Assembly: GCA_017545185.1 (NCBI GenBank)
Contig: JAFWQJ010000027.1
Span: 1 to 47,565 of the forward strand
Source: Oscillospiraceae bacterium
GTDB lineage: Bacteria; Bacillota; Clostridia; Oscillospirales; Ruminococcaceae
Length of the DNA: 47,565 bases
Direction of reading: 5' to 3'
The translations under genes and the position numbers were made by a program. Position 1 is the first letter of the stretch. Every line of letters starts with the position of its first letter. The notes beneath the pieces are model-generated. The model was not told where the DNA came from. It saw only the letters and a program-made list of their open reading frames with translations, and did not search any database. Below, piece by piece: positions 9,325-42,215 of the stretch.

Positions 9325-9407
9325 CGCAAACAGACCCTCCGTGCGGAGAGCCTGTAAACAGTACGATCAATCCCTCGTGATCTGAGCCTTCCGGCTCTGT
9401 ACCGGCA

Positions 9408-9600
9408 AAACGGCAGGTTTCCTGACTCATGCATCCTTACGCTATGCCATGCCTTCCCGATCGCTCAGTGACCTTTCCGGATCCCCCGGAAAACGGCATA
9501 CCGCTCCGCAAATACAGTGACGAGATCGTGCAGGATTCTGACCTGCTTCCCTTTTACCGGCTGCATCGTATGAGCGATCAGCCGCACCGTCCGCGCATAT
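9408..9600 (-). ncRNA. Cobalamin (B12) riboswitch
   Basis: Read on the minus strand this leader contains, in order: the conserved core GGGAAGCAGGTCAGAATCC, the GTCACTGTA element, CACTGAG followed by GGGAAGGCATGGC, and the B12 box GTCAGGAAACCTGCC (9426-9412). All of these match the cobalamin riboswitch consensus in the correct order and spacing. A promoter lies upstream and a terminator hairpin downstream, so it should shut off cbiK and the importer genes when corrinoid is plentiful. The outer boundaries are approximate. Confidence 0.95.
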
Positions 9601-9625
9601 TCAGTTTTGTTCATGAACAGCCTAT

Positions 9626-22053: not shown

Positions 22054-22805
22054 ATTTTCGCCTCACGGTATTCTGTTTCAAGCGCCGGGTCATAGAGCTT
22101 TGACAGCGCATAATCATCGCCGAGAAAATCCCCGACCGTAATCAGCGCCGTCTTACGGATCCCGTGATTCTGCGCGGTTTCCGCAAGTGTTCCGACCGTA
22201 CACCGGCAGACCTTTTCTTCCGGCCAGCTCGCCTTATAAACGATCGCGGCGGGCGTTTCCGGCGCGTAGCCGCCGGCGATCAGCTCCGCGGAAAGCAATT
22301 CTGTCATACCCGCGCTGAGGAAGATCACCATAGTCGCATGATGCGACGCAAGCGAACGGATCTGCTCGCGTTCCGGCACAGGCGTCCGGCCTGCCATGCG
22401 CGTCAGAATGACGGTCTGCGAGACCTCCGGCAGCGTATATTCGGCCCTGAGCGCCGCCGCCGCACCGCAGAAGGAGCTGACGCCGGGGCAGATCTCATAC
22501 GCAATATGCAACAAATCAAGTCTGTCCGCCTGCTCACGGATCGCCCCGAAAATGCTCGGATCACCGGTGTGCAGCCGGACGGTCATTCTGCCCTCCGATT
22601 CGGCTCGCTGCATCACCGCGATCACTTCATCCAGCGTCATTTCGGCGCTGTTATGGATCTCACAGCCTGCTTTCGCGTATTTGAGCAGCGCCGGATTGAC
22701 CAGCGACCCCGCATAAATGATGACATCCGCCTGCTCCAGCAGCCGCATACCGCGGACCGTGATCAGATCGGGCGCGCCGCAGCCTGCCCCGACAAAATGG
22801 ATCAT
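22050..22805 (-). CDS. cbiF: Cobalt-precorrin-4 C11-methyltransferase
   Basis: SAM-dependent methylase of 251 residues with the CbiF/CobM signature MIHFVGAGCGAPDLITVRG, IIYAGSLVNP, VRLHTGDPSIFGA and the late RTPVPE loop. It adds the C11 methyl group before lactone opening by CbiG. It overlaps cbiD and cbiG by four bases each. Confidence 0.96.
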   Translation of the reverse strand: MIHFVGAGCGAPDLITVRGMRLLEQADVIIYAGSLVNPALLKYAKAGCEIHNSAEMTLDEVIAVMQRAESEGRMTVRLHTGDPSIFGAIREQADRLDLLHIAYEICPGVSSFCGAAAALRAEYTLPEVSQTVILTRMAGRTPVPEREQIRSLASHHATMVIFLSAGMTELLSAELIAGGYAPETPAAIVYKASWPEEKVCRCTVGTLAETAQNHGIRKTALITVGDFLGDDYALSKLYDPALETEYREAKI

Positions 22806-23935
22806 ATTGCCTCCTCCGTCATTGCCGCAATGATATCGTCTGCACCGGCCGTTTTCAGCAGCAGATCATGCTGATTCGAGAAGATGACCGCGCCGGTCTG
22901 CACCTGCGATTTTACGCGGGCGTCCAGATAATACGCAATGCGGCAGGTCAGAATTCCCAGCATTTTCGTGTATTCCGGATGCTGACACAGAATATCCAGC
23001 GCCGCATCCGTCGTGACGCAATCCGGTATCCGCATCAGCATTTCACGCGGTATCCCCGCAAGCGCCCCGCAGGCGATCAGCGTTTCCATGCGCCCGTCCG
23101 CATACGATGAATGCGTATTCATGATGCCGGAGCCGAGCTTCACCAGCTTGCCGATATGCCCGATCAGCAGGATGCGCCGGAAGCCGAGCGTCACGCCGAT
23201 ATCGAGCGCATCGCCGATGAAGTTGCTGCACATGACGGCGCGTTCAGTCAGTTCCGGCCGGAAATCCTGCAAAAAAGTATCACTGTAATTGCCGACCGTG
23301 AGCAATAAATTTTCATATCCGGCAGCACGCCGCATGTTGGCCTCTGCGCGGATCGTTTCAATGATCGCCGCATTGCTCATCGGCTCGACAATGCCGGTCG
23401 TTCCGATGACCGAAATGCCGCCCGTGATCCCCATGCGCGGATTGAAGGTCTTGTTTGCCAGCACGGTACCTTCCGGCGCGGAGACTGTTACCCGAAAGCC
23501 GCCCGGATAGCCGTACCGTGCGGCAGTTTCCGTGAGCGCTTCTGTGATCATCCGGCGCGGCGTGCTGTTGATCGCAGAAGCACCGACCGGCTGATCGAGC
23601 CCGGGCTTTGTCACCGTCCCGATCCCCTCGCCGCCGGTGATCGTAATGCCGCTTTCGCATTCGGTGACCGATGCGTAGATCAGGATCCCGTTTGTGATAT
23701 CGGGATCGTCGCCGCTGTCCTTGCGAACGGCACAGGAGGCGGAATCCCCGGTTATCACCGGTTCCAGAATATCCAGCGTCAGCGGGATGCCGGCAGGCGT
23801 CATCAGCGTGATCTGTTCGGCTGTTTTGCCCGAAAGCAGCATTTCCGCCGCTGCCTTTGCCGCGCCGGCCGCACAGGAACCGGTCGTATAGCCGCAGCGG
23901 AGTTTTTTCGTTCCGCGGTAAATATAGCTGTTCAA
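22802..23935 (-). CDS. cbiD: Cobalt-precorrin-5B C1-methyltransferase
   Basis: CbiD methylates C1 of the ring. Family marks are LRCGYTTGSCAAGAAKA at the N-terminus, GGEGIGTVTKPGL, the ITGGISVIGTTGIVEPMS motif and GHIGKLVKLGSG. A TTG at 23935 is chosen as start because AAAGGA lies 8 bases upstream and the protein then begins just before the conserved LRCGYTTG. A GTG at 23989 is in frame but has no ribosome binding site and lies about ten bases from the predicted transcript start. It is the first gene of the 16-gene operon. Confidence 0.93.
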   Translation of the reverse strand: MNSYIYRGTKKLRCGYTTGSCAAGAAKAAAEMLLSGKTAEQITLMTPAGIPLTLDILEPVITGDSASCAVRKDSGDDPDITNGILIYASVTECESGITITGGEGIGTVTKPGLDQPVGASAINSTPRRMITEALTETAARYGYPGGFRVTVSAPEGTVLANKTFNPRMGITGGISVIGTTGIVEPMSNAAIIETIRAEANMRRAAGYENLLLTVGNYSDTFLQDFRPELTERAVMCSNFIGDALDIGVTLGFRRILLIGHIGKLVKLGSGIMNTHSSYADGRMETLIACGALAGIPREMLMRIPDCVTTDAALDILCQHPEYTKMLGILTCRIAYYLDARVKSQVQTGAVIFSNQHDLLLKTAGADDIIAAMTEEAI

Positions 23936-23951
23936 AATACAAATCCTTTCC

Positions 23952-24000
23952 GGTTTCTCCGGTATGGAATACAGCGCAGCCGTCTGCACTGCGTTTCTGT
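23952..24000 (-). promoter_or_regulatory. Short hairpin leader of the cob operon, without riboswitch
   Basis: The predicted leader is only about 65 bases. It forms one hairpin from TACAG-CGCAG against CTGCG-CTGTA and a small CCGG/CCGG hairpin just before AAAGGA. No B12 box or other cobalamin riboswitch element is present. The hairpins could affect translation of cbiD. Confidence 0.5.
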
Positions 24001-29343: not shown

Positions 29344-29982
29344 ATGCATCTGGTTATGAGACAGCAGGCGAAGGAGCTTTTTGAAGCGACCTTTGTCATC
29401 GGCGCAAATAATATGCAGATCGGTGATATGCGGATCACCAGCCAGATCTCCCGTGTCGGCGGAGACTGGACGATCAATTATTCGGGTACGCAGATCGCGT
29501 TAAAGCGCGGCAAGAACTTTGCACCGAAGGAAGACAAGCCGTTCAGACCCTATGACATCTATGTGAACAACGAGGGTGTCGGCAGTGTATACCAGAAAAT
29601 CATCAAAGAAGGCGGTCCGTTTTCCGATGAATACCCTGTGTTCGTTCTTTGGCTCAACGGGGTTTGCTATACGCTGTATCCGGTCTGCTTTGGTGAGGAA
29701 GGCGCAAAAAGCCCTGTATACTGCAACGGCGTCCAGGTCGCGGAAGTTCACAAAGCCGCTGCCATTTACGATGACCTGCATGAATACAATATCTACATGT
29801 ACGACCGGCAATACGGTCTTGCCTGTATTTTGTTATGCGCGCATTCCTACGATATCGGCTTCTATAAGAACGGCGAAAAAATCACAAAAGGCTATTATAA
29901 AAAGCTCTACACGACAACAGACAAAGAACTTCTCGAAAAATACAATCCTGCCTTTATGGCCGGCTTATACGGACAGCCGTGA
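29344..29982 (+). CDS. Cytosolic protein of unknown function, possibly LURP-one/tubby-like
   Basis: The 212-residue product has no signal peptide or membrane segment. It starts MHLVMRQQAKELFEATFVIG with AAGGAG upstream, and is rich in alternating beta-strand patterns and aromatic residues. The strand-rich layout and the opening MRQ...F..TFVI recall LURP-one-related/tubby C-terminal-like barrels, but I cannot confirm this. It is a single gene with a consensus promoter and a strong terminator, so it is probably well expressed. It separates two surface-protein units and has no functional link that I can see. Confidence 0.8.
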   Translation: MHLVMRQQAKELFEATFVIGANNMQIGDMRITSQISRVGGDWTINYSGTQIALKRGKNFAPKEDKPFRPYDIYVNNEGVGSVYQKIIKEGGPFSDEYPVFVLWLNGVCYTLYPVCFGEEGAKSPVYCNGVQVAEVHKAAAIYDDLHEYNIYMYDRQYGLACILLCAHSYDIGFYKNGEKITKGYYKKLYTTTDKELLEKYNPAFMAGLYGQP

Positions 29983-29998
29983 TCATCCGCATACAGCA

Positions 29999-30033
29999 GA
30001 GCACCGTTCCGCATGGGACGGTGCTCGTTTATT
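29999..30033 (+). terminator. Terminator of the solitary gene
   Basis: Perfect 12-bp stem GAGCACCGTTCC (29999-30010) / GGGACGGTGCTC (30015-30026) with loop GCAT, followed by GTTTATT. Confidence 0.85.
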
Positions 30034-30141
30034 GTCACGCCGGAAAACAGATACAGGTGCTTCTTTCCTGCCCCTGTGATTTGAATGGAAGGATGATCAT
30101 TCCGGCAGACTGCGGGAACAGCGCCGTATGAACCTGAGTGA

Positions 30142-30252
30142 CATGATATTCAGATTCCCGGCACTGACCTGGCATTTTGCTGTTGATATTCATCTGTTAT
30201 CGGAAAAGCGCGCGATTCGCAACTTATCTGTTTCAATTATCATCGCTTTATA
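30142..30252 (+). repeat. Dispersed non-coding repeat, copy A (short form)
   Basis: It starts CATGATATTCAGATTCCCGG and runs through GGCATTTTGCTGTT, CATCTGTTATCGGAAAAG, GATTCGCAACTTATCTGTT and CATCGCTTTATA. It aligns with copies at 39603, 42216 and, in part, 47334, all in the same orientation. It lacks the left arm of the hairpin seen in the long copies. It lies in the gap between convergent genes, where no CDS is present. Confidence 0.7.
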
Positions 30253-30260
30253 CGCAGCAG

Positions 30261-30295
30261 CCGCCGCATGACCGGAATCAGGCGGCGGTTTTTTT
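30261..30295 (+). terminator. Intrinsic terminator after repeat copy A
   Basis: The stem CCGCCGC / GCGGCGG (30261-30267 with 30282-30288) is followed by eight T on the plus strand. No plus-strand CDS precedes it after the terminator at 29999-30033, so it would end either read-through or an unannotated RNA that includes repeat copy A. Confidence 0.7.
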
Positions 30296-30330
30296 GCTGT
30301 TTATGAGGCATGACTGTTCCTGCAGGTGCT

Positions 30331-33300
30331 TCATGATGTCTCAGCTTCCGTGAGATACCTGTCAGCGTCGGTCCGAATATCCTCATGCAGTGTCAGCAGC
30401 GCCGGACGCGGTTGTGCCTGCGACTGTTTGCCGAGCAGCTGCTCCCATGTGAGCTTTTTGCCCGCAACTGAATTGTTGACGTAATAGATCAGAATATTCT
30501 GCACATCATCAACGGACAGTTCGCCGTTCTCATTGATATCCGCTGCTTTGATCTGCGTGTCAGTCAGACCTGTCTCCTTGCCTGAAATACGCATCGTGTA
30601 TGCCTTCAGTGCAAGCTGAACGTCCTCAATGCTGACTTTGCCGTCATCGTCCACATCTCCGGTCAGATATTCCGGTTCGTCTATAATCGTTTCTCCTGTC
30701 CTGGCAATCAGCATCTCGTAGTCTCCGTTTGCATCCGCATCCGCATAAACAGTGATCGTATCCTCATCTTCTTCATTCACAAACACCTTCTGAAATCCGG
30801 ATGGCAAGCACAGTTCTGCGCGATGCGCGTCATTTTCACAGGTGATGCTGACATGGTTCAGATTGCTGCCGGACAGGTACCAGCCTTTCTCTGCAGGCGT
30901 CAGGATCAATTCCGATACACGCGGCGCGTTCACAGTGATCTTATACCAGTCTGTCGGGGAATACCCGTCATCCGATACAACACGCAGCGTGATCTGCCCT
31001 TCGCCGCCTTTCAGCATGATTCTGCCGTCCGGACGCATCTCAACGGTTTTGACTGCATCGCCCTCACCTATCAGCAGCGTATGATCATAACGCATCCGCA
31101 GCACTGCTTCTTCGGGTTTGTTATACTCCAGCTGATGGCCTGCATCTGAAGTGTTCATCAGATAACTGTGGAACGATTCGTCCTTTTCGCCCTCACCGTT
31201 CAGAGCACCGATCTCAATGAGAATCGTATTATCTCCGTCATGGAAACCTTCGCTCGACTCAGCCTTCGTTTCAAATGATAATACAGGTTCCTTGGAAATA
31301 GTTTCCAGATTACAGTACTCCGCTTCATAATCGGATTTTTCGATAAACTTACTATCGCCGAGCAATCCGTAATGGTTCAGTAAATCCACATCGCTGCTGA
31401 CAAATGCAATAAAGGCATGATCATCCGACGTAACGGCAGATCTGCCGAGTTCTACCGGGTTTGATAATTCTTCTGTCCCGGGAATGCACCACGCACCCAT
31501 ATCGGCGAGACTAATAAACAGATCATCTTTCTTGGAATCAGCATCATAGATCGACTGTGGGTCATAAATCTTGACACGCATCGTATAGTTATGCTCAGAG
31601 ATCTGTTCCTGATTCTCCTTCTTTATGTTCAGCTTCATCCTGTATGTTCTTTCCTCATAGCCGTATGCAAGTACTGTATGTCCATAATGCTGGTTGTTAT
31701 AATAACAGATCAGAACCGGCTTTCCGCTTTTCACCTCATTCAGAATTTCGTTTAACTTACTCTTTTCTGTTTGGGCAGTAAAGGTGTTTTTTCTGTCAAT
31801 AATCGCGTTGGTATACTGCAGGAAGTAGTAGTAGTTGATTGCAGACTCTACAGCAGCATCCATCTTCACATCAGTCAGATAGACCGCATCCTCTGTGAAA
31901 ATATCCGGTTTGAACACATCCTGTGATTGCAGCAATGCAGTCACCACCATGCCGTAACAGGAACCCTTCCAAGTCTCTGAGAGCTTCGATCCGATGACCT
32001 CCTTCTCCAGCGGTGAAAGCTGAGACCAAAGTTGTTCGAGATCCTCCGGCAGCAGTTGATAATTCTTGCTGAAGACACTTCTTGCATTGACAAAGTTCCA
32101 GCGATCATAATCCATGCGGAAGGGCGGAAACGTGGTGGTAACAACAGTCGTTGTCATGATCGCAGTGGTGATAACTGTGGCGGCCGTTGTGGATGTGGTC
32201 GTGGTTGTTGTAGTCGTTGCGGCAGTCGTTGTCGTAGTCGTAGTCGTAGTCGTTGTCGTGGTCGTTGTAGTAGTAGTTGTTGTTGTTGTCGTGGCAGTTG
32301 TGGTCGTTGTTGTCGTAGTCGTTGTCGTTGTTGGCGCAGTCGCAGTTCGCGCCGTCGTTGCCTTTGCCGTTGTGGTCGCATTCGCAGTTGTTGTTGAAAC
32401 GGGGACAGTCGTTGCCGAAACTGCGGTCGTTGTTGCAGGACGAACAGTCGTCTTTGCAGGTGCAGAGGTCGTAGTTCCTGCGGCCGGGGCTGTCGTCACG
32501 ACCGGCTCCCAGAAGAAATCGTCCGGCAGTGTTTTACCGCGCAGACTGTCCTCAAACGAAACGCAGGTGCATGTTTTCAAATCAAGCGACTTCACATACA
32601 CCGAGCCGATAATTCCGGGTGCGTAGGTTTCAGATCTATTGATGAAACGGTCGAGGATATTCTGACGGTAGGATAAACTCCCCAACGATTGATAATCCGG
32701 CTGCATCTCAAGAGAAGAATACGGCATCAGAATATTCGTATTGAGAAATGCACCGTTCCATGCGCTGTAGGAAGCACCCTCTGCGCCGACAAGCACGGAA
32801 TTCGGAATGAGCTCAAATAAAAACTGATCCTCCTGCATCAGATCTGACCAGTGATTCGTCTGATACGGATACAGCGGATTTGAAACTAGATTCAGTACGC
32901 CGTCACAAAATGCCTGATAATATATCCCGGTTGTAAACAGCTTCATTCTGTATTTCAACTCGAATGATTCGTCAAGCTGAATGATGACATCTGCACTGCC
33001 GGGATAAAAGTCCTGTTCTGACATCAGCGTCGGATTATAGTAATCACCGGATTCCCAGAGCGTTGTATTGTTCACTATGAACAGCGGTGCCTGATCACTC
33101 ATTTCTCCTGTCAGCCTGACGACCATGGGCTTTCCGTCAGACGCCTGCCGGTTTGAATAGGGATCAATCAGAATGTTCTGATTCCATTCAACTTTGGAAA
33201 GATCAATCGTACAAGAGCGGTTCACGACCATCACATTATACAGTTCTGTCTTCTTCAAATCGCCGTTGATATCGTGCGTATAAAAATGAACATCCCTGAA

Positions 33301-34641
33301 CTGCATTCCGTCCGTCTCATACGGTTCAGCAGCGGCAGGATCAAGATTCGGATCGCTCAGCTCCCGGTACAAACTTTCCATTTCCTGCTGCTTTTTCACT
33401 GCACTGAGCGGACTGCGGACAAAGCCGCCGGAATGCAGCACCGGAACATAAACTGTTTTATCTGTGTCCGCGCTGCCCGGCTCTGCAAACTGTATCTCCG
33501 CAACTTCCAGCGAATCAAACAGGTCATCGCGGTATTCCGAAATCATCCTGTAGGCTGTGTCTTCCATCAGGAAATCCCGATCCTGCAATGCAGACGGCTC
33601 ATCCTGCCCCAAGTCTAGCCGGATATAATCATCAAACATGGTATCCGGCCGCATTGCTTCCGGGAACAACTGATAACCTGTAAGATGCGCAACAGAATCT
33701 GTATTTGCCGGAACAGAACGCCCGATCGACGGCAGCATGATCTCGGCGGATTGTGTCTGCAGCTCCGACGAAACACCCCGCGCAACATAAATTTCACCTT
33801 TGACGGTCAATTTCCATTCACCATTCAATGTGCCCGCACAGTAAACATTGCCCTCTACAGTCAGCGGAGATCTGATGTCCAGGTTACTTTCCGGATTTGT
33901 CATAATCAGATCGCCGCCGATCACGGAATCTTCCCGGCAGTCAATCCCCAGCCTCCGATTATTGCAGATCAGACTTCTGCCGGAACCGAGTGATAAATAT
34001 CCGCCATATATCTCTGATTCAAGCTCCGGATTATAGAGCAGCAGATTGGTTTGCCATGTATTATAGTTGTTAATACCGCAGCGCAAAGCACCCGCCATGA
34101 TATTGTAAGGCTGGTTCTCGCACAACAACGCCCCGGAATCGTTTTCCAGCACGGAATCGACATATAAATAGGGCAGCTCCGGATCAATCCTGACGGCAGC
34201 CGTTCCGCCGTCACCGGTCATTTCCACATCATACGGAATCGCCGAAGAAAGCGTGAGCGATCCCGAACCGAGGCTCAGATTACCGAAAACAGAAAGACCG
34301 CTCTGCTTTTTCGTCATATTCAGGTGGAGCTTGTTTATGTCTGGATCGCACGGAATCACGGTCGTATCGTTCAAGGTGACGACGTTATCCAATGCAGCAT
34401 CCTTACTTATGGAGCCGTCCGGAACACGCGGCAGACAGTGCAGTCCAAGATTGCCTCCGTTCAGAAGTTGTCCGTTATCCAGATGAAACGTGTCTGTCAC
34501 CGTAAACGGTTCAGACAGCAGATGAACCGGTAATTCCTCAATATCCAGAGCAGCCGCCGGCTGCAGACCGTTTGTCAGCACGGTAACCGCAGCATACCAT
34601 ACTGCTGTCAGGAATGCTGCTGTTCGCTTCTGTCTTTTCAA
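30331..34641 (-). CDS. Secreted papain-like (C39/transglutaminase-like) protein with poly-Thr linker and dockerin
   Basis: The product has 1436 residues. It has a signal peptide, then about 680 beta-rich residues that look like a beta-helix or adhesin body, then a Thr linker (about 720-835) with very long Thr runs. Next is a domain with GSCYGM (candidate nucleophile Cys, near 895), HYGHTVLAYGY (candidate His) and KIYDPQ (candidate Asp), the order of a papain-like cysteine peptidase. Last is a dockerin (DVDDDGKVSIED and DINENGELSVDD) with a C-terminal extension. The start is a TTG with AAAGGGTGAG 7 to 8 bases upstream, 14 bases after the kinase gene. Activity is inferred; the Cys/His set could be degenerate. 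Confidence 0.85.
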   Translation of the reverse strand: MKRQKRTAAFLTAVWYAAVTVLTNGLQPAAALDIEELPVHLLSEPFTVTDTFHLDNGQLLNGGNLGLHCLPRVPDGSISKDAALDNVVTLNDTTVIPCDPDINKLHLNMTKKQSGLSVFGNLSLGSGSLTLSSAIPYDVEMTGDGGTAAVRIDPELPYLYVDSVLENDSGALLCENQPYNIMAGALRCGINNYNTWQTNLLLYNPELESEIYGGYLSLGSGRSLICNNRRLGIDCREDSVIGGDLIMTNPESNLDIRSPLTVEGNVYCAGTLNGEWKLTVKGEIYVARGVSSELQTQSAEIMLPSIGRSVPANTDSVAHLTGYQLFPEAMRPDTMFDDYIRLDLGQDEPSALQDRDFLMEDTAYRMISEYRDDLFDSLEVAEIQFAEPGSADTDKTVYVPVLHSGGFVRSPLSAVKKQQEMESLYRELSDPNLDPAAAEPYETDGMQFRDVHFYTHDINGDLKKTELYNVMVVNRSCTIDLSKVEWNQNILIDPYSNRQASDGKPMVVRLTGEMSDQAPLFIVNNTTLWESGDYYNPTLMSEQDFYPGSADVIIQLDESFELKYRMKLFTTGIYYQAFCDGVLNLVSNPLYPYQTNHWSDLMQEDQFLFELIPNSVLVGAEGASYSAWNGAFLNTNILMPYSSLEMQPDYQSLGSLSYRQNILDRFINRSETYAPGIIGSVYVKSLDLKTCTCVSFEDSLRGKTLPDDFFWEPVVTTAPAAGTTTSAPAKTTVRPATTTAVSATTVPVSTTTANATTTAKATTARTATAPTTTTTTTTTTTTATTTTTTTTTTTTTTTTTTTTTTTAATTTTTTTTSTTAATVITTAIMTTTVVTTTFPPFRMDYDRWNFVNARSVFSKNYQLLPEDLEQLWSQLSPLEKEVIGSKLSETWKGSCYGMVVTALLQSQDVFKPDIFTEDAVYLTDVKMDAAVESAINYYYFLQYTNAIIDRKNTFTAQTEKSKLNEILNEVKSGKPVLICYYNNQHYGHTVLAYGYEERTYRMKLNIKKENQEQISEHNYTMRVKIYDPQSIYDADSKKDDLFISLADMGAWCIPGTEELSNPVELGRSAVTSDDHAFIAFVSSDVDLLNHYGLLGDSKFIEKSDYEAEYCNLETISKEPVLSFETKAESSEGFHDGDNTILIEIGALNGEGEKDESFHSYLMNTSDAGHQLEYNKPEEAVLRMRYDHTLLIGEGDAVKTVEMRPDGRIMLKGGEGQITLRVVSDDGYSPTDWYKITVNAPRVSELILTPAEKGWYLSGSNLNHVSITCENDAHRAELCLPSGFQKVFVNEEDEDTITVYADADANGDYEMLIARTGETIIDEPEYLTGDVDDDGKVSIEDVQLALKAYTMRISGKETGLTDTQIKAADINENGELSVDDVQNILIYYVNNSVAGKKLTWEQLLGKQSQAQPRPALLTLHEDIRTDADRYLTEAETS
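32128..32490 (-). repeat. Low-complexity Thr-codon array (linker)
   Basis: On the plus strand the sequence is an array of GTN/GTT/GTC/GTA triplets, which on the coding minus strand are ACN threonine codons. It includes about 25 uninterrupted Thr codons. Synonymous codons are mixed, so it is not a pure microsatellite. It encodes the O-glycosylation-prone linker before the papain-like domain. Confidence 0.9.
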
Positions 34642-34655
34642 AGTATCTCACCCTT

Positions 34656-36800
34656 TCATTCCCAGTATGCAAACTGATTATAGTACACATCATCCTCTGT
34701 GACACCGGGGAACACATTAGAGCCCCGTTGAAGTTTGCTCCAGTCAATACTGTTTCCGCCGTAATATACTTTGCAATACGGCACTGTAAAAGCATAGGCG
34801 CGAATCTCTTTCACACTGTACGGGATAAGAACCTCAATCAGCCACGGACAGTTATCAAATGCATGATCTTCAATCAGCGTGACACCGTCCGGTATCAGGA
34901 CAGATTCGAGAAGACCGCATCCGCTGAATGTATAAGGTGCAATTTCAGTCATGCCTTTTGAGAGCTTCAGCTCAGAGAGGTCGCAGTTCTGAAAGGCATG
35001 TTTCCCGACTTTCGTCACACTGTCCGGCAGGATGACCGATTGAATCCCGCTGCATCCGGAAAACGCTCCGTCCCCGATCTCAGTCAGACCGTTCGGAAAT
35101 GATACCGCAGTAAGATCGCTGTTTTCAAAAGCACGGTCTGCAATGCTGCGTACCGGTACGCTGTCGATCTCTGCGGGAATGATAAGCTCCTGCAAAGGAG
35201 CATTTGTCCCCTCAATGACCGCCGTTCCGTTTGATACAGAAAACCGGAAAATACTTGTTGTGGTTTGATTTTCCGGCTCTGCAGGCTGTGCGGGCGCATC
35301 TGTTGAGACAGGAATAGCCGGCGTTCTGTCCGGCTCACCCGGCCTCTGATTGCCTGGGGGGGCTTCTGCAGCCTGCGGATCATTCCGGACTGTATCCGTT
35401 GTTTCACCGGAAACTGTCTCAGCCGTTGTCAAGGTCTGCAATACCGTTTCCGTAACAGAATCCTCTGCTTTTTCCGGTCCGGATCCAGCATCGGATACAG
35501 CAGCAGTATCCTGTACCGCATCCGTGACAGCCATATCCGTAACAGTGTTTTCTTCCGCTTCTGACAAGATGACAGTTCCGCTGTCACGACCCTGTTCGGT
35601 ACCGCGGTGCATCACTGCATATACGCCGATCCCGGCAGCAAGGACCCCGGCGGCAATCAGTCCGAGCATTTTCAATACAAACCCCCGCTGCCCGGAAGAA
35701 CGCTGAACAGGTGCCGCTGCATTACCGGCACGCTGCTGTGCGGCTGCTGCAGACTGCGGTGCCGCATAAACTGTTGCATCGGGCGCAGGCTGCGGTGCCG
35801 CATAGACTGTTGCATCCGGATCGGACTGCGGTGCTGCATAAACCGTTGCATCCGGGTCATACGGAACAGCAGGATCGTATTCTGATTCAGGCAAGGTACG
35901 CAAAGCCGCGATCAGTTCCTCTGCACTCCGGTAACGCTCATTCACAGAATATGCACATGCACGCAGAATCACATCTCCGAACGCACCCTGCGCATCCAGC
36001 GGTTTCGGGAGCGGTGTTCCGGTGATCCGCATAACGAATGCTTCCTCCGGATTTTGGGTATCTTCAAACGGAAACAGACCGCGGTTCATCATCTGATACA
36101 GACAGATTCCGAGCGAATAAATATCCGTTTGCTCAGTATAATACTCTCCGGACGAATTTTTCGCAGTATAGACTTCCGGCGACATATAACCGGGTGTACC
36201 CGCAAAAGAACGTGTCATATCTGCCTGCTTGGCGATATTAAAATCGCCGAGCTTGAATGTTCCGTCCGCAGACATGAAGAAATTGTCCGGCTTGACATCG
36301 CGGTGAATAATACCGGCAGCATGGGCATACCGCAGTGCTTCTCCGATTTCAATCCCGAGGCGGCGAACCGTCTGCGGATTACGTTCCAGTGTTCCGTCTG
36401 CAAATAGATCGGCCGCATTCTGCATCAGCTCCATGCGGATCAGAAACACATACCCCGCAAATTTACCGTCAAGCTGAAATTCGCGGAGATCCTCGTCCTC
36501 ATACCGTACAATATGGGGGCAGTCCCGCAGCCGGAGCATCAGAGCAGATTCGTTTTCCACTGCGGCACGCCGGCGCATCAAAGCTTCCCGCGCCTGTGCT
36601 TCTTCCGCGGCAAAACGCTGCGACGGCACGATCGGCTGGATCTTCAGCGCTGAGACATCGGTCCGGGCTGCGCGTTTCGCTTCAACGCGGTAAACCGCGC
36701 TGAATGCACCCGCTCCGATTCGTTCCCGGATGTACCAGTTTTCCCAGATCGGCTGTTTAAGCTGCGGAATGATGATTTCAGCTAATTCTGTAATATTCAT
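34656..36800 (-). CDS. Membrane Ser/Thr protein kinase with extracellular BspA-type LRR domain
   Basis: The product has 714 residues. The cytosolic N-terminal Hanks-type kinase shows a Gly-rich loop GAGAFSAV (29-36), catalytic Lys53 in ALKI, HRDVKPDN (167-174), a DFN in place of DFG (186-188) and GTPGYMSPE (201-209). Three repeats of DPDATVYAAPQ-type lie in the juxtamembrane part, followed by one membrane helix, a Thr/Glu-rich stalk and an extracellular set of BspA/LRR_5 repeats (PDSVTKVGKHAFQNC, PDGVTLIEDHAFDNC). It should sense a surface ligand and phosphorylate cytosolic targets; the FHA protein of the same operon is the obvious one. ATG 36800 has AAAGGA 6 bases upstream. Confidence 0.92.
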   Translation of the reverse strand: MNITELAEIIIPQLKQPIWENWYIRERIGAGAFSAVYRVEAKRAARTDVSALKIQPIVPSQRFAAEEAQAREALMRRRAAVENESALMLRLRDCPHIVRYEDEDLREFQLDGKFAGYVFLIRMELMQNAADLFADGTLERNPQTVRRLGIEIGEALRYAHAAGIIHRDVKPDNFFMSADGTFKLGDFNIAKQADMTRSFAGTPGYMSPEVYTAKNSSGEYYTEQTDIYSLGICLYQMMNRGLFPFEDTQNPEEAFVMRITGTPLPKPLDAQGAFGDVILRACAYSVNERYRSAEELIAALRTLPESEYDPAVPYDPDATVYAAPQSDPDATVYAAPQPAPDATVYAAPQSAAAAQQRAGNAAAPVQRSSGQRGFVLKMLGLIAAGVLAAGIGVYAVMHRGTEQGRDSGTVILSEAEENTVTDMAVTDAVQDTAAVSDAGSGPEKAEDSVTETVLQTLTTAETVSGETTDTVRNDPQAAEAPPGNQRPGEPDRTPAIPVSTDAPAQPAEPENQTTTSIFRFSVSNGTAVIEGTNAPLQELIIPAEIDSVPVRSIADRAFENSDLTAVSFPNGLTEIGDGAFSGCSGIQSVILPDSVTKVGKHAFQNCDLSELKLSKGMTEIAPYTFSGCGLLESVLIPDGVTLIEDHAFDNCPWLIEVLIPYSVKEIRAYAFTVPYCKVYYGGNSIDWSKLQRGSNVFPGVTEDDVYYNQFAYWE

Positions 36801-36848
36801 AAGCAATCCTTTTCCAAAACTGCCGCAATCCAAACAGCAGCTTGATTA

Positions 36849-37682
36849 TTATGCACCTCTGTTCCGGATCTTCAGGCTGAGGATCGCAATCACCGTGCAG
36901 CCGAAACAAATCAGCAGCAGACTGCCCCATGCTGTCAGCAAGGTCTGCACGGTCGGATCATAAGCAGAATTGAACGACAGCCGGACGATCTCCGGATATG
37001 CAAGGCTCATGCCGAGCGGCAGATCCGGGTCATTCAGGTTGCCGATGCAGCCCAGTGCCGACATGCCCCATTTGCTGCATGTGATATAAGCGATGTATTT
37101 TGCCCAGCCGCTCAGCCGGAACAGCACACCGCTCATCACAAGCTGTAGAATCAGCAGAAACGGCATCGCGGTCATTGCGACATTCGGTGTTGATGACACA
37201 GATGAAACCATGAGTCCCATGATATCCGATGCCCATACGATCAGAAACAGCGTGATAAAATACTCCGGCAGTGCCGCACCGAGCAATACATGATGTGCAG
37301 GGAAATCGACCCACAAAAAGCATATTCCCGTCAGCAGTGCCGCCTGAATAAAGCAGACTGCAAACTCAAATATGATATGTGCGAGTATGTAGGCGCTGAT
37401 GTGCAGTCTGGCACGGTATTCGCTTGCAATGGTTTCATGCTCCTTGCAGACGGTCTGAATCGAATTGAAAATGCCGATCCATATCCCTGCGGAAATGATC
37501 GCGAAAAAGCCGGATTCGGTATCCTCATAGGTGCGGAACATATCGTTTCCGACTACAGCACAGACCAGAAACCCGATGACCGCTGCGATCAGAATAAACT
37601 TCCAGTCCCGCTGATTCATAAAAAGCCTGTAATTCTTCGCAAGATAAACCGGGATCTGTTTTCCGGCAGAGCTTCTAGCCAC
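36849..37682 (-). CDS. ABC-2 type permease partner of the FHA-ABC ATPase
   Basis: Integral membrane protein of 277 residues with about six membrane segments, of the ABC-2/ABCG-type transmembrane family. It lacks its own ATPase and overlaps the ATPase gene, so it should be the channel of an exporter. The frame continues upstream inside the ATPase gene, but GTG 37682 has AGGAGG exactly 5 bases upstream and gives an 8-base overlap, so it is the likely start. The kinase gene follows after 48 bases. The exported substrate is unknown. Confidence 0.88.
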   Translation of the reverse strand: MARSSAGKQIPVYLAKNYRLFMNQRDWKFILIAAVIGFLVCAVVGNDMFRTYEDTESGFFAIISAGIWIGIFNSIQTVCKEHETIASEYRARLHISAYILAHIIFEFAVCFIQAALLTGICFLWVDFPAHHVLLGAALPEYFITLFLIVWASDIMGLMVSSVSSTPNVAMTAMPFLLILQLVMSGVLFRLSGWAKYIAYITCSKWGMSALGCIGNLNDPDLPLGMSLAYPEIVRLSFNSAYDPTVQTLLTAWGSLLLICFGCTVIAILSLKIRNRGA

Positions 37683-39285
37683 GGCTTCCTCCTCTCGTCT
37701 GTGCAAAGCGGTCGATAAATTCATCTGCTCTGCCTCTGCCGCCCTCTGCATTGATCTCCATGACGATATCAGAGAGCTTCTCCACGCCGAAAAATGAAAG
37801 TGCATTCGGCACATCGCCGTAATACGCAAGATGGCCGGCATCGTCCCGGCTGCTCTTTGCGAGCACGATCACCTTTTTATACATGTGCGCAACATCATCC
37901 GGATAATGCGAGATCACCAGAACTGCATTGCCGGATTCCGCACAGGGCTTCAATTCCGCTGAATTGTCAATAGATTCCTCACGCGAAATATATCGCCTGA
38001 GCTGATCCATCTGATCTTTTCTGCCGGCAACATCCAGACCTGCATCCGGTTCGTCAAGTGTAAAAAACGCCGTATCACCGACTGCCTTGATCGCAACCTG
38101 AACACGCTTGCGCTGTCCGCCGCTGATCACGCCAAGCTTACTGTCCCGGATCGGCGTCAGCATCATTCTGCCGATCACATCTTCCACACGCGCTTCGATC
38201 TCTTTTCTGCTGTAATCCCCTGCCAGTGCAAGCTTTGCTGCATCCATGATCGTATGGTATACCGTATCGTCAAAGCGGTAATCAGGGTACTGCGGCACAA
38301 TGCCGATTCTGGATTTCAGCATTCTGAGATTCTGATAAAGGTCAAGGCCGTCGAGTTCCACATTTCCTTTCACGGAAAGCTGTGAACCGGCAGAACGAAG
38401 CTGACCTGTGATCGCCTTCACAAATGTCGATTTTCCCGCGCCTGCACCGCCGAGGATCAGAATAAAATCACCGGATTCAATATCCAGAGAAATATCGCGC
38501 AGAAGTGTTTTTTTCGGTGTGAACGGCGAGCGGGATGCCAGAACAGATTCCAGTCTGACTCTCATCAGAATGTCAGAGTGCGTCGGATCATAGACCTGTT
38601 CCTTCCGTTTCTGCCACCAGACCGTATCGCCGGAAAAAAACAGCATCGTTCTGCCGATCCGGATCGTATCAAACGGCCGAAGCATCTGCTCCCGCTCAAT
38701 ACTCCTGCGGTTGACGGCCAGACCGTTCCGGCTGCCTTTGTCCGCGATTTTCCACCCGTTCCCGGATTTTTGCAGGACTGCATGGGTGCCTGAAACCGTA
38801 AAATCATGCAGACAGATTCCGTTCTGCACGGTTCTGCCGATCAGGATTTCCTTTTTATCCGAAAGATCAAGCGCGTCCCATTTTTCATCCGCCGCAGCAC
38901 CGGTACAAAAGATCATTGCGACAGCGTCCGGGTGCTGAAGATCCGTGCTGTCGATCCGCAGAACGTCGCCGTCACGGAGACTGACCGGTTCCGAGCCGGA
39001 ATCATCTTTCGCGGGAATCCGCTCACCGTTATAATAGGTGCCGTTCAGACTGTTGAGGTCACGGTATACAAAGGATCGGGACGCTTCATCAAAGTGAAAT
39101 TCGCCGTGATGCCGTCCGGCAATCGCAGAATGCAGCGGGATCGACGGAATGTTTCCGCCGGCTGCCCGACCGACTGTCATGCTGTTTTCCAGCAGAACCG
39201 TGCGGAGCGGCTCACCGCGTTCCAGAATCAGCAGAACCGCCGGCATCGGCGGCGCAGGCGTATAGTATACGGTTCGATTTTCCAT
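37675..39285 (-). CDS. ABC transporter ATPase with two N-terminal FHA domains
   Basis: A 536-residue cytosolic protein. FHA domain 1 (about 35-95) has VGR...SRHH-like AGRHH and SLNGTYYNG. FHA domain 2 (about 147-205) has IGR, SGTHA and SRNGLAVN. The ABC domain (about 250-530) has Walker A GGAGAGKST, signature SGGQRKRVQ and Walker B FFTLDEPDAGLD, in the style of ABCG exporters. FHA domains bind phosphothreonine, so the kinase encoded in the same operon probably controls it. The domain order equals that of Mycobacterium Rv1747, except that the membrane part is a separate protein here. ATG 39285 has GAGG 8 bases upstream. Confidence 0.93.
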   Translation of the reverse strand: MENRTVYYTPAPPMPAVLLILERGEPLRTVLLENSMTVGRAAGGNIPSIPLHSAIAGRHHGEFHFDEASRSFVYRDLNSLNGTYYNGERIPAKDDSGSEPVSLRDGDVLRIDSTDLQHPDAVAMIFCTGAAADEKWDALDLSDKKEILIGRTVQNGICLHDFTVSGTHAVLQKSGNGWKIADKGSRNGLAVNRRSIEREQMLRPFDTIRIGRTMLFFSGDTVWWQKRKEQVYDPTHSDILMRVRLESVLASRSPFTPKKTLLRDISLDIESGDFILILGGAGAGKSTFVKAITGQLRSAGSQLSVKGNVELDGLDLYQNLRMLKSRIGIVPQYPDYRFDDTVYHTIMDAAKLALAGDYSRKEIEARVEDVIGRMMLTPIRDSKLGVISGGQRKRVQVAIKAVGDTAFFTLDEPDAGLDVAGRKDQMDQLRRYISREESIDNSAELKPCAESGNAVLVISHYPDDVAHMYKKVIVLAKSSRDDAGHLAYYGDVPNALSFFGVEKLSDIVMEINAEGGRGRADEFIDRFAQTRGGSRG

Positions 39286-39333
39286 TATAATACCTCGGAT
39301 AATATGTTTGATTGAGCAATAATATATATGTTT

Positions 39334-39363
39334 ATTATAACAGACTTTTTTTGTTTGTGTCAA
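39334..39363 (-). promoter_or_regulatory. Promoter of the FHA-ABC/kinase operon
   Basis: TTGACA (39363-39358) and TATAAT (39339-39334) with an 18-base spacer on the minus strand, about 50 bases upstream of the FHA-ABC start. Confidence 0.8.
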
Positions 39364-39602
39364 GGAAAAATTGTTGTTTGTGCACGATTGTATGTTGGGA
39401 TAATACAATTTGTTGTTTCAATTGCCAGCTATACTAAATGCTATGATTTCATGCGTATCTTTCCCGAACGAAAACAGACTTATCCGAAATACAAGTCCAG
39501 TTTGGAAATGATAAACGTCCACTGCAAGGAACAGGTTGTTACACGAGCGAACAAACTGACAAGTACAATCAAAAAGAGGATCTCATTCTGAAACTGAAAT
39601 AA
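39364..39602. other. AT-rich intergenic stretch
   Basis: No reading frame here has a ribosome binding site and I see no RNA-gene signature. The stretch separates the divergent promoters of the FHA-ABC operon and the LRR-dockerin gene, together with repeat copy B. It is clearly more AT-rich than the cob operon. Confidence 0.5.
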
Positions 39603-39720
39603 GTATGATACTGAAATTCCCGGCACTGACCGGGCATTTTGCTGTTTATAGGCATCTGTTATCGGAAAAGGATTTCCGGATCCGGAACTGATCTGTTAAT
39701 GTATAAAAGCATCGCAAGCA
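39603..39720 (+). repeat. Dispersed non-coding repeat, copy B (short form)
   Basis: It reads GTATGATACTGAAATTCCCG, then GGCACTGACCGGGCATTTTGC, TGTTTATAGGCATCTGTTATCGGAAAAG, and ends near TAAAAGCATCGCAAGC. It is closest to copy A and shares its missing left hairpin arm. A perfect CCGGATCCGG palindrome is embedded at about 39677-39686. It lies upstream of the LRR-dockerin gene rather than after a CDS. Confidence 0.7.
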
Positions 39721-39867
39721 CGCGGTTTCTAAGATGTCGATCCCGCTGCGTGTACGATTTCGTGAGCAGTAAAATAAGCACCTTCTAAGTCTATATGCCC
39801 GGCAAACAGCGCGAAAAAGCTTTGTAACACTTACAGCTTTGTTTTCTGAATTGAAAACTGAATCCGC

Positions 39868-39896
39868 TTGACAGCCGGGGAATAATCAGTTATAAT
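39868..39896 (+). promoter_or_regulatory. Consensus promoter of the LRR-dockerin gene
   Basis: TTGACA (39868-39873), a 17-base spacer and TATAAT (39891-39896), about 50 bases before the ATG at 39948. Confidence 0.9.
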
Positions 39897-39947
39897 AAAC
39901 ATGCTTAGTTAAAAGCACCGAACTAAAGTTCAAAAAGGAGTTTTATT

Positions 39948-42215
39948 ATGATTACAAAAAGATTATTCTCAGCAATGCTTAGTATACTTGCGATTACTTG
40001 CCCTATTTCTAACTTTCATATTTATGAAGCAACTGAATCTTCAGCAATTGAAGCAGAAGATATATCAGGAAACACCGGAACCTGCGGAGACAGTGTGACA
40101 TATTCCCTTGACGATACAGGAAAGCTGACTATCAGCGGAAAAGGTGCTGTATATGACTATGCTGATGGAGAGAACCCATTTGCCAATAATGAGCAGATCA
40201 AACAAGTCGTAATTGAAGAAGGAATAACGCATATAGGTGAATATGTATTTGCAAACTGTACTTCACTTGCCAGCATCACTATCCCCGATTCCGTAACAGG
40301 TATCGGTCAGTATGCTTTCAGCGGTTCCGCTGTTAAGTCGATCGTCATTCCCGAATCAGTGGTAACACTGGATACAAACAGTATGTTTATGGATTGTAAG
40401 GAACTTGAGTCTGTGGTTCTCCCGCAGTCTGTAACAGTGTTATACAGCAATGCTTTCAAGAATTGTATAAAGCTAAAGGAAGTTGATATTCCCGATTCCG
40501 TAACTGCAATACAGAATGATGTTTTTTCGGGTACAACATTTACGTCGCTGTTTATTCCTTCAGAAGTTGCCATGATAAACGGAAATGCTCTGAGAGGCAG
40601 CAAGATCGATACAATTTACGGATTCAAGAATTCAACTGCAGAGGCATTTGCAAAGAAAAACGGACTGAATTTCATTGAAAGAGAAGAACGAGTATGGAAA
40701 AGAACTGACAGCCTGCCCATTGCAGGTGTTTATAAGCTTGCATGTGATGCAGACGTTAAAAACTATATCACAATAAGCGAAATGCTTGATCTTGATCTGA
40801 ACGGTCATACTGTCAATATCCCTGAGATCATTTGCAGCAGCACAAGCAATGTTATAATCAGAGACAGCGATCCGCAGAAGAAAGGCACAATCATTTGTAC
40901 AGAGGATCGCAATCTGATAACATCATACAATAAACTGACCATTTATGGCGGAAACTTTTATGGCTATGATAAGAAAACGGTCTGCGCAACAGTAAGGATC
41001 AATGACGGTAGTTTTGATTGTTACGGCGGTGAGATCACCGGATACTACAGTCATGCGCTATCTGTAAGAACCAAAGACGGCATTATAAACATTATGGGCG
41101 GAAAAATGGAAGCTTCCTCTGCAGATAACGGAAAAAGCAACGTATATTCAGTATGGCTTGCTGATACATTTGCCGGTACGCTCAATATAACAGGCGGAGA
41201 GCTGCATGCAGACCTTGGTGCAGCGGTCAGCGGCTCTCCTTCGGACTGTATCGTGAATATATCCGGCGGAAAGATATTAAGTGACTATGATTATGGTTTT
41301 AAGTGCATGAAAAAAGGTACTGTAAATCTAAGCGGAAATATCTGTATGAAGGGAGAAAAGAGCGGTATTTACGTACCGGACGGAAAAACGATAAATATTA
41401 CCGGTGCTGTAACCGGTGCTGATGTAAGTGTTTATGCTGAAGCATCCGGTTTACTTACGAACGGACTCGGTAAGTATATAAGTGCTTCAACACTGAACCG
41501 ATATCTGCCTGATATAAAATCAAATGGTACTATTTCAGTAAACAATGACGGAGAACTGATCATAGATGTTCCTGTTGTTACATCAACAACAGCTGTATCA
41601 GGTTCAGTAACTTCAACAACCGCTACAACATCCGCCATGGATAAGCCGGTTACCACTACCGCAAAGGCAACCACCACAACAGTCAAGGTGACTACGACCA
41701 CCGTCATGGCTACAACAACAACCAAGGCCACTACTACAACCGCTAAGGTTACCACCACAACGGAAAAAGCTATCACCACAACAATAAAAGCTGCCACTAC
41801 AACGGCCAAGGTTACTACCACAACTGCGAGAGCAACGACTACGGCAGCACCGGTTACCGCGACGACACCGACAGAAACGACTCCGGTCGTTACGACCTCT
41901 GCCGCCCTTGTTCCGCTGCGCGGCGATGTGACCGGCGACGGTAAGGTCAGTGTTGATGATGCGCAGCTGACGCTCAAGGCATATACCGAACGCATTGCCG
42001 GAAATGACATGAAGCTGACTGATGAACAGATCAAAGCAGCGGACGTTGACGGCAACGGCGAGATCAGCGTTGAGGATGCACAGTGGCTTCTGAAGTATTA
42101 TACTGAAAAATACGTTGCCGGAAAAGATATCACATGGGATGATATCTTCGGTAAAAAAACGCAGGCATTGCCCCGATTGATCAAAAAGAGGATACCGTCT
42201 TTGAAGATGCGATAA
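39948..42215 (+). CDS. Secreted BspA-LRR / beta-helix protein with Thr linker and dockerin
   Basis: The product has 755 residues. A signal peptide (about 1-28) is followed by LRR_5/BspA repeats (about 45-245, with IPDSVTGIGQYAFSG and IPDSVTAIQNDVFSG). A beta-helix-like block (about 250-530) has recurring GG(K/N/E)-type turns such as NIMGGKMEA and NITGGELHA. The Thr linker with K(A/V)TTTT repeats covers about 540-650, and a dockerin (DVTGDGKVSVDD and DVDGNGEISVED) is followed by an AGKDITWDDIFGKKTQALPR tail. It is probably a surface adhesin or scaffold-attached binding protein; no enzyme motif is seen. AAGGAG precedes the ATG. The body is AT-richer than the dockerin segment. Confidence 0.92.
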   Translation: MITKRLFSAMLSILAITCPISNFHIYEATESSAIEAEDISGNTGTCGDSVTYSLDDTGKLTISGKGAVYDYADGENPFANNEQIKQVVIEEGITHIGEYVFANCTSLASITIPDSVTGIGQYAFSGSAVKSIVIPESVVTLDTNSMFMDCKELESVVLPQSVTVLYSNAFKNCIKLKEVDIPDSVTAIQNDVFSGTTFTSLFIPSEVAMINGNALRGSKIDTIYGFKNSTAEAFAKKNGLNFIEREERVWKRTDSLPIAGVYKLACDADVKNYITISEMLDLDLNGHTVNIPEIICSSTSNVIIRDSDPQKKGTIICTEDRNLITSYNKLTIYGGNFYGYDKKTVCATVRINDGSFDCYGGEITGYYSHALSVRTKDGIINIMGGKMEASSADNGKSNVYSVWLADTFAGTLNITGGELHADLGAAVSGSPSDCIVNISGGKILSDYDYGFKCMKKGTVNLSGNICMKGEKSGIYVPDGKTINITGAVTGADVSVYAEASGLLTNGLGKYISASTLNRYLPDIKSNGTISVNNDGELIIDVPVVTSTTAVSGSVTSTTATTSAMDKPVTTTAKATTTTVKVTTTTVMATTTTKATTTTAKVTTTTEKAITTTIKAATTTAKVTTTTARATTTAAPVTATTPTETTPVVTTSAALVPLRGDVTGDGKVSVDDAQLTLKAYTERIAGNDMKLTDEQIKAADVDGNGEISVEDAQWLLKYYTEKYVAGKDITWDDIFGKKTQALPRLIKKRIPSLKMR
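41636..41890 (+). repeat. Thr-rich linker repeats
   Basis: Degenerate 18-21-base units encoding K(A/V)TTTT-like peptides, about ten copies, within the LRR-dockerin gene. The same style of linker occurs at 45712-45850 in the metallopeptidase-like gene. Such arrays are prone to length change by recombination. Confidence 0.85.

Follow-up and report, generated by a model that had tools for sequence, protein, structure and literature searches.

The 47,565-nucleotide contig JAFWQJ010000027.1 of an Oscillospiraceae bacterium (assembly GCA_017545185.1; this whole stretch is referred to as the window) carries four consecutive minus-strand genes that encode an ATP-binding cassette (ABC) ATPase with two FHA domains, a separate ABC-2 permease, a membrane Ser/Thr kinase with an extracellular leucine-rich repeat (LRR) domain, and a secreted dockerin protein. 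Sequence comparisons make it fairly probable, in our judgement, that these genes specify a phospho-switched ABC exporter module, a split counterpart of the mycobacterial Rv1747/PknF system, to which the dockerin protein is accessory.

The operon and its protein products

37675..39285, minus strand: FHA-FHA-ABC ATPase (FHA-ABC), 536 residues, with an ABCG-like nucleotide-binding domain; ATG start (Pfam; start read from the sequence)
36849..37682, minus strand: ABC-2 permease, 277 residues from a GTG with a good Shine-Dalgarno sequence (Pfam ABC2_membrane, 8.8e-18)
34656..36800, minus strand: membrane Ser/Thr kinase with BspA-LRR ectodomain, 714 residues, ATG start (Pfam Pkinase and LRR_5)
30331..34641, minus strand: secreted cysteine-peptidase-like dockerin protein, TTG start (judged accessory, not core)
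39334..39363, minus strand: match to the sigma-70-type promoter consensus, TTGACA-18-TATAAT with TG, 12/12

The permease gene overlaps the FHA-ABC gene by 8 bases, the kinase gene lies 48 bases further on, and the dockerin gene follows the kinase gene after 14 bases. All four genes occur at the place and on the strand given in an earlier note on this DNA, and the junctions of -8, 48 and 14 bases claimed there match the starts that we read together with their Shine-Dalgarno sequences. The domain architecture proposed in the same note is borne out by Pfam, with two FHA domains and ABC_tran on the ATPase, ABC2_membrane on the permease, and Pkinase plus LRR_5 on the kinase. Read from the sequence, the four-gene minus-strand operon is real as a gene arrangement. 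Promoter-like sites number 21 in 29800-40100, against 11.6 in shuffles; two score 12/12, the second lying on the opposite strand ahead of an LRR-dockerin gene at 39948.

Both FHA domains are N-terminal to the ABCG-like nucleotide-binding domain, with a spacer of 36 residues between their Pfam borders. An AlphaFold model of the FHA-ATPase computed from 40 sequences has a mean predicted local distance difference test (pLDDT) score of 82.5, and its Foldseek matches are ABC ATPases, including ABCG proteins. The kinase possesses the motifs HRDVKPDN, DFN and SPE, such that the HRD, DFG-type Asp and APE-type elements of a Hanks-type kinase are all present.

Recurrence of the exporter and kinase genes in Clostridia

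Named genomes scanned with a profile of the permease yield 136 relatives, of which the best 80 were kept. An FHA-ABC gene stands beside the permease gene in 75 of these 80 loci, and among these 75 a kinase gene (39 loci), a PP2C phosphatase gene (49) or either of them (61) occurs on the same strand within 2.5 kb. Put another way, 27 of the 75 FHA-ABC loci have both, 12 only the kinase, 22 only the PP2C, and 14 neither. Control ABC genes without FHA domains in the same loci, a small and biased sample, have a kinase nearby in 2 of 14 cases and a PP2C in 1 of 14. The order of the genes varies: FHA-ABC, permease, PP2C, kinase; kinase first; PP2C, kinase, FHA-ABC, permease; PP2C, FHA-ABC, permease, kinase; and permease, FHA-ABC, kinase. 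A second set comprises 22 loci. FHA-FHA-ABC and permease are fused into one protein in eight of them (L174, L175 and L180-L185), which is the layout of Rv1747, and five of these fused loci (L180-L184) also have same-strand PP2C and kinase genes upstream; an ABC protein and a permease without any FHA match are encoded at a further five (L172, L173 and L177-L179). The gene order that the earlier note had proposed to look for across Ruminococcus genomes is thus found in part, in that kinase, FHA-ABC and permease recur together in Clostridia, often with a PP2C, while narrow models of the window's dockerin and peptidase domains find no counterpart of the dockerin gene in these neighbourhoods.

The distribution of FHA-ABC is patchy. 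Counting the window's own genome each time, it turns up at E 1e-50 in 3 of the 30 genomes covered within the genus, at 1e-60 in 18 of 297 within the family (several as partial or fused forms), and at 1e-90 in 9 of 391 within the class. The genome searches scored just the top-ranking candidates of each genome (13, up to 50, 5 or 3, depending on the search), so that absence is not proof. No conserved cargo gene emerges from the operons, the largest extra families occurring in 3-4 loci only. The top 10 of at least 5000 matches in a plasmid search are generic ABC proteins of 26-31% identity. A defence-system reading was considered and discarded, the PADLOC matches reflecting plain similarity to kinase and ATPase domains.

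The kinase gives a second line of evidence. In a tree of 52 kinase domains, which included three of this genome's other five kinases, the window kinase groups with L053, L055 and L066, all three of them operon kinases (97/93), and these four are enclosed by a larger group of 21 rows, 16 of which are operon kinases. Its branch is long (0.92) and its exact place accordingly unsure; the DFN variant is common to it and to most of the larger group. The PASTA kinase (contig C36) and the C14 kinase of the same genome fall elsewhere, and a kinase-LRR protein on C50 lies, on a long branch of its own, with the larger group. The ectodomains of operon kinases vary widely, from LRR_5 in the window to LRR_4, Lectin_C, SH3_3, NPCBM and DUF6273. 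By a simple hydropathy rule, seven operon kinases (L054, L056, L058, L061, L065, L069 and L070) lack a predicted membrane helix; L054 carries DUF6273 according to Pfam, the others look alike by eye, and together they are a possible cytoplasmic variant of the sensor.

The 3.6-Mb genome, of which the window is contig 21, encodes six Pkinase matches, two FHA proteins (the window's and one on C45) and three PP2Cs. The C50 protein (G000:C50:67832-71494; L029:7833-11495) is a second kinase-LRR protein of 1220 residues with a long EPEPEAVA repeat linker, and by eye it looks like a pseudokinase, with HRG for HRD and GGF for DFG. The second FHA protein (C45:8263-8454) adjoins a gene that by eye resembles FtsW/RodA. 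Possibly the PASTA kinase and the C45 protein use the same reader logic in cell-wall control.

Because the neighbourhood is recurrent and the window kinase is closest to operon kinases, control of the exporter through phosphothreonine-FHA contacts, of the Rv1747/PknF kind suggested by the earlier note, appears to be the best reading of the locus. A family that recurs in gut and rumen Clostridia, with its phosphatase and its interchangeable sensors, would allow the mechanism to be tested in harmless organisms.

Threonine motifs and a putative phospho-switch

39271..39273, minus strand: codon of Thr5 of FHA-ABC, within the N-terminal MENRTVYY tag (alignment of 52 relatives)
38953..39177, minus strand: FHA1, with Gly57 at the Ser of SRxH (Pfam, alignment)
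38653..38844, minus strand: FHA2, with Arg151, Ser165, His168 and Asn187 kept (Pfam, alignment)
35754..35858, minus strand: juxtamembrane linker of the kinase with three TVYA copies, DPDATVYAAPQ, DPDATVYAAPQ and APDATVYAAPQ
35844-35846, 35808-35810 and 35772-35774, minus strand: the linker Thr codons (read from the sequence)
35610..35684, minus strand: single predicted transmembrane helix of the kinase (hydropathy script)
34785..35147, minus strand: BspA-type LRR_5 ectodomain of the kinase (Pfam LRR_5, 1.5e-33)

The 80 FHA-ABC sequences were reduced to 52 non-redundant ones and aligned. Their common N-terminus reads M(D/E)NKTVYYxPLPPKPA or a close variant, and the column of Thr5 is the best conserved of the first 36, with Thr in 47 of 52 rows, a gap in three and another residue in two. 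The pattern T[VIM][YFL] occurs in 30 of the 52 N-terminal segments against 3.5 expected (0/2000 shuffles), a count in which at least four rows whose segment missed the true N-terminus (L085, L114, L121 and L124) stand as misses. The N-termini of the neighbouring PP2Cs (0/49) and permeases (2/64) have no such excess. In the structural model residues 1-16 are devoid of secondary structure, and the mean pLDDT of residues 1-10 is 49. As judged from these alignments the conservation of the N-terminal Thr is solid, and it pinpoints an exact residue for mutation. FHA1 retains Arg40, His60 and Asn81; its Ser column holds Ser in 37 and Gly, as in the window protein, in 12 of the 52 rows. Since FHA2 has the complete set of what we take to be the consensus phosphothreonine contacts and FHA1 has Gly57 in place of Ser, FHA2 is the likelier phosphothreonine reader.

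A similar motif recurs in the kinases. The 80 loci and the window hold 59 kinases, of which 40 adjacent and 12 other kinases have linkers of at least 25 residues (the seven shorter ones were dropped), and removal of near-copies leaves 39 adjacent linkers. The pattern T[VIMRQ][YFL][AGVIYS] occurs 28 times in these linkers against 2.16 expected (0/2000 shuffles; 22 of 39 linkers), and T[VIM][YFL] occurs 25 times against 2.89 by shuffling. Ser versions number 3 against 4.3 expected, and order-swapped versions 5 against 2.8. The longer pattern persists under stricter removal of redundancy (26 against 1.82 in 36 linkers, 0/2000) and with the window left out (23 against 1.74). In the C-terminal parts of the kinases T[VIM][YFL] is found 17 times against 19.4, and the longer pattern 18 times against 10.7 (44/2000). 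In the sequences compared here, what appears to be new is the combination of a near-invariant Thr in the unstructured N-terminus of an FHA-ATPase with a similar Thr motif in the linkers of kinases; these Thr motifs may be candidate phospho-docking tags for FHA domains, a putative switch between ATPase and kinase.

The mechanism that we propose would run as follows. The membrane kinase would sense an external cue through its exchangeable ectodomain, here BspA-LRR, and autophosphorylate on residues including the Thr of the juxtamembrane TVYA repeats. The FHA-ATPase, mainly through FHA2, would dock on the linker phosphothreonine and be phosphorylated on the conserved Thr5. Phosphorylated Thr5 would then be bound by an FHA domain, either of its own ATPase or of an adjacent one, in competition with docking on the kinase, and this binding would change the assembly or the activity of an exporter made of two ATPases and two permeases. 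GarA and OdhI offer a precedent for intramolecular phosphothreonine-FHA binding. A PP2C, whose gene adjoins the operon in many relatives and lies elsewhere in this genome, would reset the switch. The gene order and its recurrence, the conserved Thr, the linker motif, the unstructured N-terminus in the model and the kinship of the kinase are directly supported; we infer the phosphorylation sites, the FHA binding, the direction of control, the stoichiometry and the exporter cargo. More tentatively, a common phosphothreonine tag ('xKTVYYxP' on the ATPase, '[DN]xxTVYA'-like repeats in the linker) might offer the ATPase a choice of partner, the kinase for docking or, by folding back, its own FHA domain, with plug-in ectodomains (LRR, lectin, SH3, DUF6273) driving the same exporter across Clostridia.

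Rv1747 of Mycobacterium tuberculosis is among the closest known systems. Excerpts of the literature describe PknF and Rv1747 as a two-gene operon in which PknF phosphorylates Rv1747, and an interaction between the two in yeast two-hybrid assays that needs both FHA domains (PMC3908365); phosphorylation favours condensates of the FHA-linker-FHA part, which PstP reverses (PMC9312465; see also PMC3908365 and PMC5549992). Common to both are an exporter of the ABCG type that bears two FHA domains at its N-terminal end and a Ser/Thr kinase gene in the operon. The present module differs in that the permease gene is separate (fused in the eight loci of the second set); in the short FHA1-FHA2 spacer, where Rv1747 has a long disordered linker; in its candidate acceptor Thr residues, which lie N-terminally in the ATPase and within the linker of the kinase; in the LRR ectodomain of the kinase; in the local PP2C gene of 49 of 75 relatives; and in the Gly of FHA1. 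The analogy drawn by the earlier note is therefore right yet incomplete, the acceptor Thr being placed differently and the Ser contact of FHA1 lost: with the permease unfused, the long acceptor linker missing and FHA1 not intact, the window module appears to be a variant of Rv1747/PknF.

In the PpkA/PppA/Fha control of type VI secretion systems, too, a kinase, a phosphatase and an FHA protein govern a secretion machine, but here the machine is a clostridial ABC exporter and the FHA domains sit on the ATPase itself. For the Agrobacterium system, excerpts report that Fha binds, weakly in vitro, an N-terminal peptide of TssL phosphorylated on Thr14, with VV after the Thr and a Kd of 0.5-1.6 mM (PMC3953482). 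In Streptococcus pneumoniae the juxtamembrane domain of StkP is phosphorylated, and its phosphothreonines are discussed in the excerpted text as possible FHA docking sites (PMC12077195); the linker repeats described here differ in resembling a tag on an FHA protein encoded two genes upstream. Among the papers retrieved from the open-access PMC literature, mycobacterial Rv1747 is the one case of FHA-kinase control of an ABC exporter, and none, by title or start of abstract, deals with a clostridial FHA-ABC/kinase/PP2C operon.

The dockerin gene and the alternative explanations

30460-30660, minus strand: dockerin domain (two repeats read in the sequence)
31957-31959, minus strand: Cys895 of the dockerin protein (alignment)
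31678-31680, minus strand: His988 of the dockerin protein (alignment)

The dockerin that the earlier note assigned to the last gene stands: Dockerin_1 falls just under its Pfam cut-off (22.0 against 22.9 bits), two repeats are legible, and in a tblastn search with the whole protein the dockerin end matches 38 other places in the genome. The N-terminus looks by eye like a Sec signal. The peptidase call derives from a weak hit in NCBIfam, with an E value of 0.0012 and 18.8 bits where the cut-off is 45, and from a central domain with the pattern GSCYGM...GHxxxAY, in which Cys895 is present in 16 of 17 aligned rows and His988 in all 17; these rows represent 14 distinct proteins, three of them being the window protein and two a single gene. 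For the fold, a single-sequence model reaches a pLDDT of 37.9 and a sequence search of the PDB returns one match at E 0.53. A Thr-rich linker of the protein (window 32143-32499, minus strand) contains 73 Thr among 119 residues. On contig C30 of the same genome, an LRR_5 protein (G000:C30:34267-36834; L030:4268-6835) contains a domain related to the cysteine-peptidase-like one at 26% (E 3.8e-7), and its end looks dockerin-like by eye.

The four genes might constitute one unit: the exporter, under the control of the kinase, would work for the peptidase-dockerin protein or benefit from it, the protein being the regulated output or the cargo. The 14-base gap and the shared strand favour such a unit, as do 24 cohesin matches in the genome, 18 of them over cut-off, which are possible scaffolds for the dockerin protein. 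Against this, models of the window's dockerin and peptidase domains, built almost only from the window and so narrow that they may miss distant relatives, match in none of the 80 loci within 5 kb on the same strand. The peptidase family, detected in 7 of 247 genomes including the window's, also occurs elsewhere: genome G016 has five copies and no FHA-ABC at 1e-50, and in G206 the FHA-ABC shares a contig with none of the four family genes. A Sec-like signal would leave the protein with no need of an ABC-2 exporter. Because dockerin genes cluster in this region, where a subtilase-dockerin, an LRR-dockerin and a 1535-residue dockerin protein are encoded besides this peptidase-dockerin between 24210 and 47115, a dockerin neighbour is unsurprising; and because two 10/12 promoter-like sites (34790-34763 and 34705-34677) lie at most 150 bases from its start, the gene may have its own promoter. 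We consider the single unit improbable. The role of regulated output or effector that the earlier note gave the dockerin protein is not upheld, in view of the 80 loci without a match to these narrow models, the family in G016 and the dockerin cluster, and we set a core role aside on the evidence of the neighbourhoods. The protein is probably a mere neighbour that at most shares a transcript; occurring as it does apart from FHA-ABC, its family appears to be a separate secreted one that follows the operon by chance.

Other observations weigh against the phospho-switch itself. The window lacks a local PP2C gene, the genome's PP2Cs lying elsewhere; FHA1 is without its Ser; and 14 of the 75 FHA-ABC loci, some of them at contig ends, have no kinase or PP2C gene close to them. 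These loci, and the FHA-ABC and permease genes of G026 with no kinase on their 5.3-kb contig, would fit a kinase that does not act on the exporter and sits beside it through general clustering of signalling and membrane genes. We hold this to be improbable: with six kinase matches in 3.6 Mb, chance pairing at about half of the loci is very unlikely, the non-FHA ABC genes of the small, biased control seldom have a kinase near them, the ATPase bears phosphate-reading domains, kinase kinship follows the operon, and the operon kinase PknF phosphorylates Rv1747 (excerpts of PMC3908365). The motif itself raises a further difficulty, for the TVYY and TVYA Thr could belong to autophosphorylation, or to linkers, in clostridial kinases generally rather than be docking sites for FHA-ABC. 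By count, T[VIM][YFL] is in excess in the homologous kinase domains as well (48 against 16.9; longer pattern 15 against 9.8, 140/2000), and in the 12 linkers of non-operon kinases it occurs five times against 0.75 (2/2000), in three linkers (longer pattern 5 against 0.79, 4/2000). It is missing from 17 of the 39 operon linkers, and the patterns were picked after the first set had been viewed. Ten new operon kinases give 4 against 0.67 (22/5000; narrower pattern 3 against 0.96, 359/5000), but L154, which nearly duplicates L123 of the first set, accounts for half of that motif count; in the nine independent linkers, most of them from more distant kinases and five from fused transporters, the exact motif is not replicated (2 against 0.66, 700/5000; narrower pattern 1 against 0.95, 3100/5000). 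A position scan of the linkers gave a mild aromatic signal at +2 (z 3.7, then 1.9), with Tyr at -1 and +5 among the top signals, for which the repeat-rich linkers of L075 and L077 are a candidate explanation. The linker of the genome's own PASTA kinase likewise contains KTRYY, so that the tag may extend beyond this exporter. Set against a general kinase feature are the like tag at the N-terminus of FHA-ABC, missing at those of permease and PP2C, and the presence of FHA domains in only two proteins of this genome. Such a feature is a possible explanation, to which we give about the same tentative weight as to the shared tag. As the linker motif is unreplicated without the near-copy, we have lowered the weight of both the phospho-switch and the shared tag; in the first set of kinases the motif stands, and the idea of a shared tag is suggestive only.

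Variant repeats were seen by eye, outside any statistical test: the L153 linker has ATAYA twice and TEYA twice, and that of L180 has DKTTSVR twice, its FHA-ABC N-terminus containing DKTTYF. The juxtamembrane linker of the PASTA kinase (G000:C36:30533-31276) reads DDGKTRYYRT. Elsewhere in the window, a cobalamin riboswitch (Rfam RF00174, 79.7 bits) occupies 9395-9606 on the minus strand, and a CbiD gene lies at 22802-23989.

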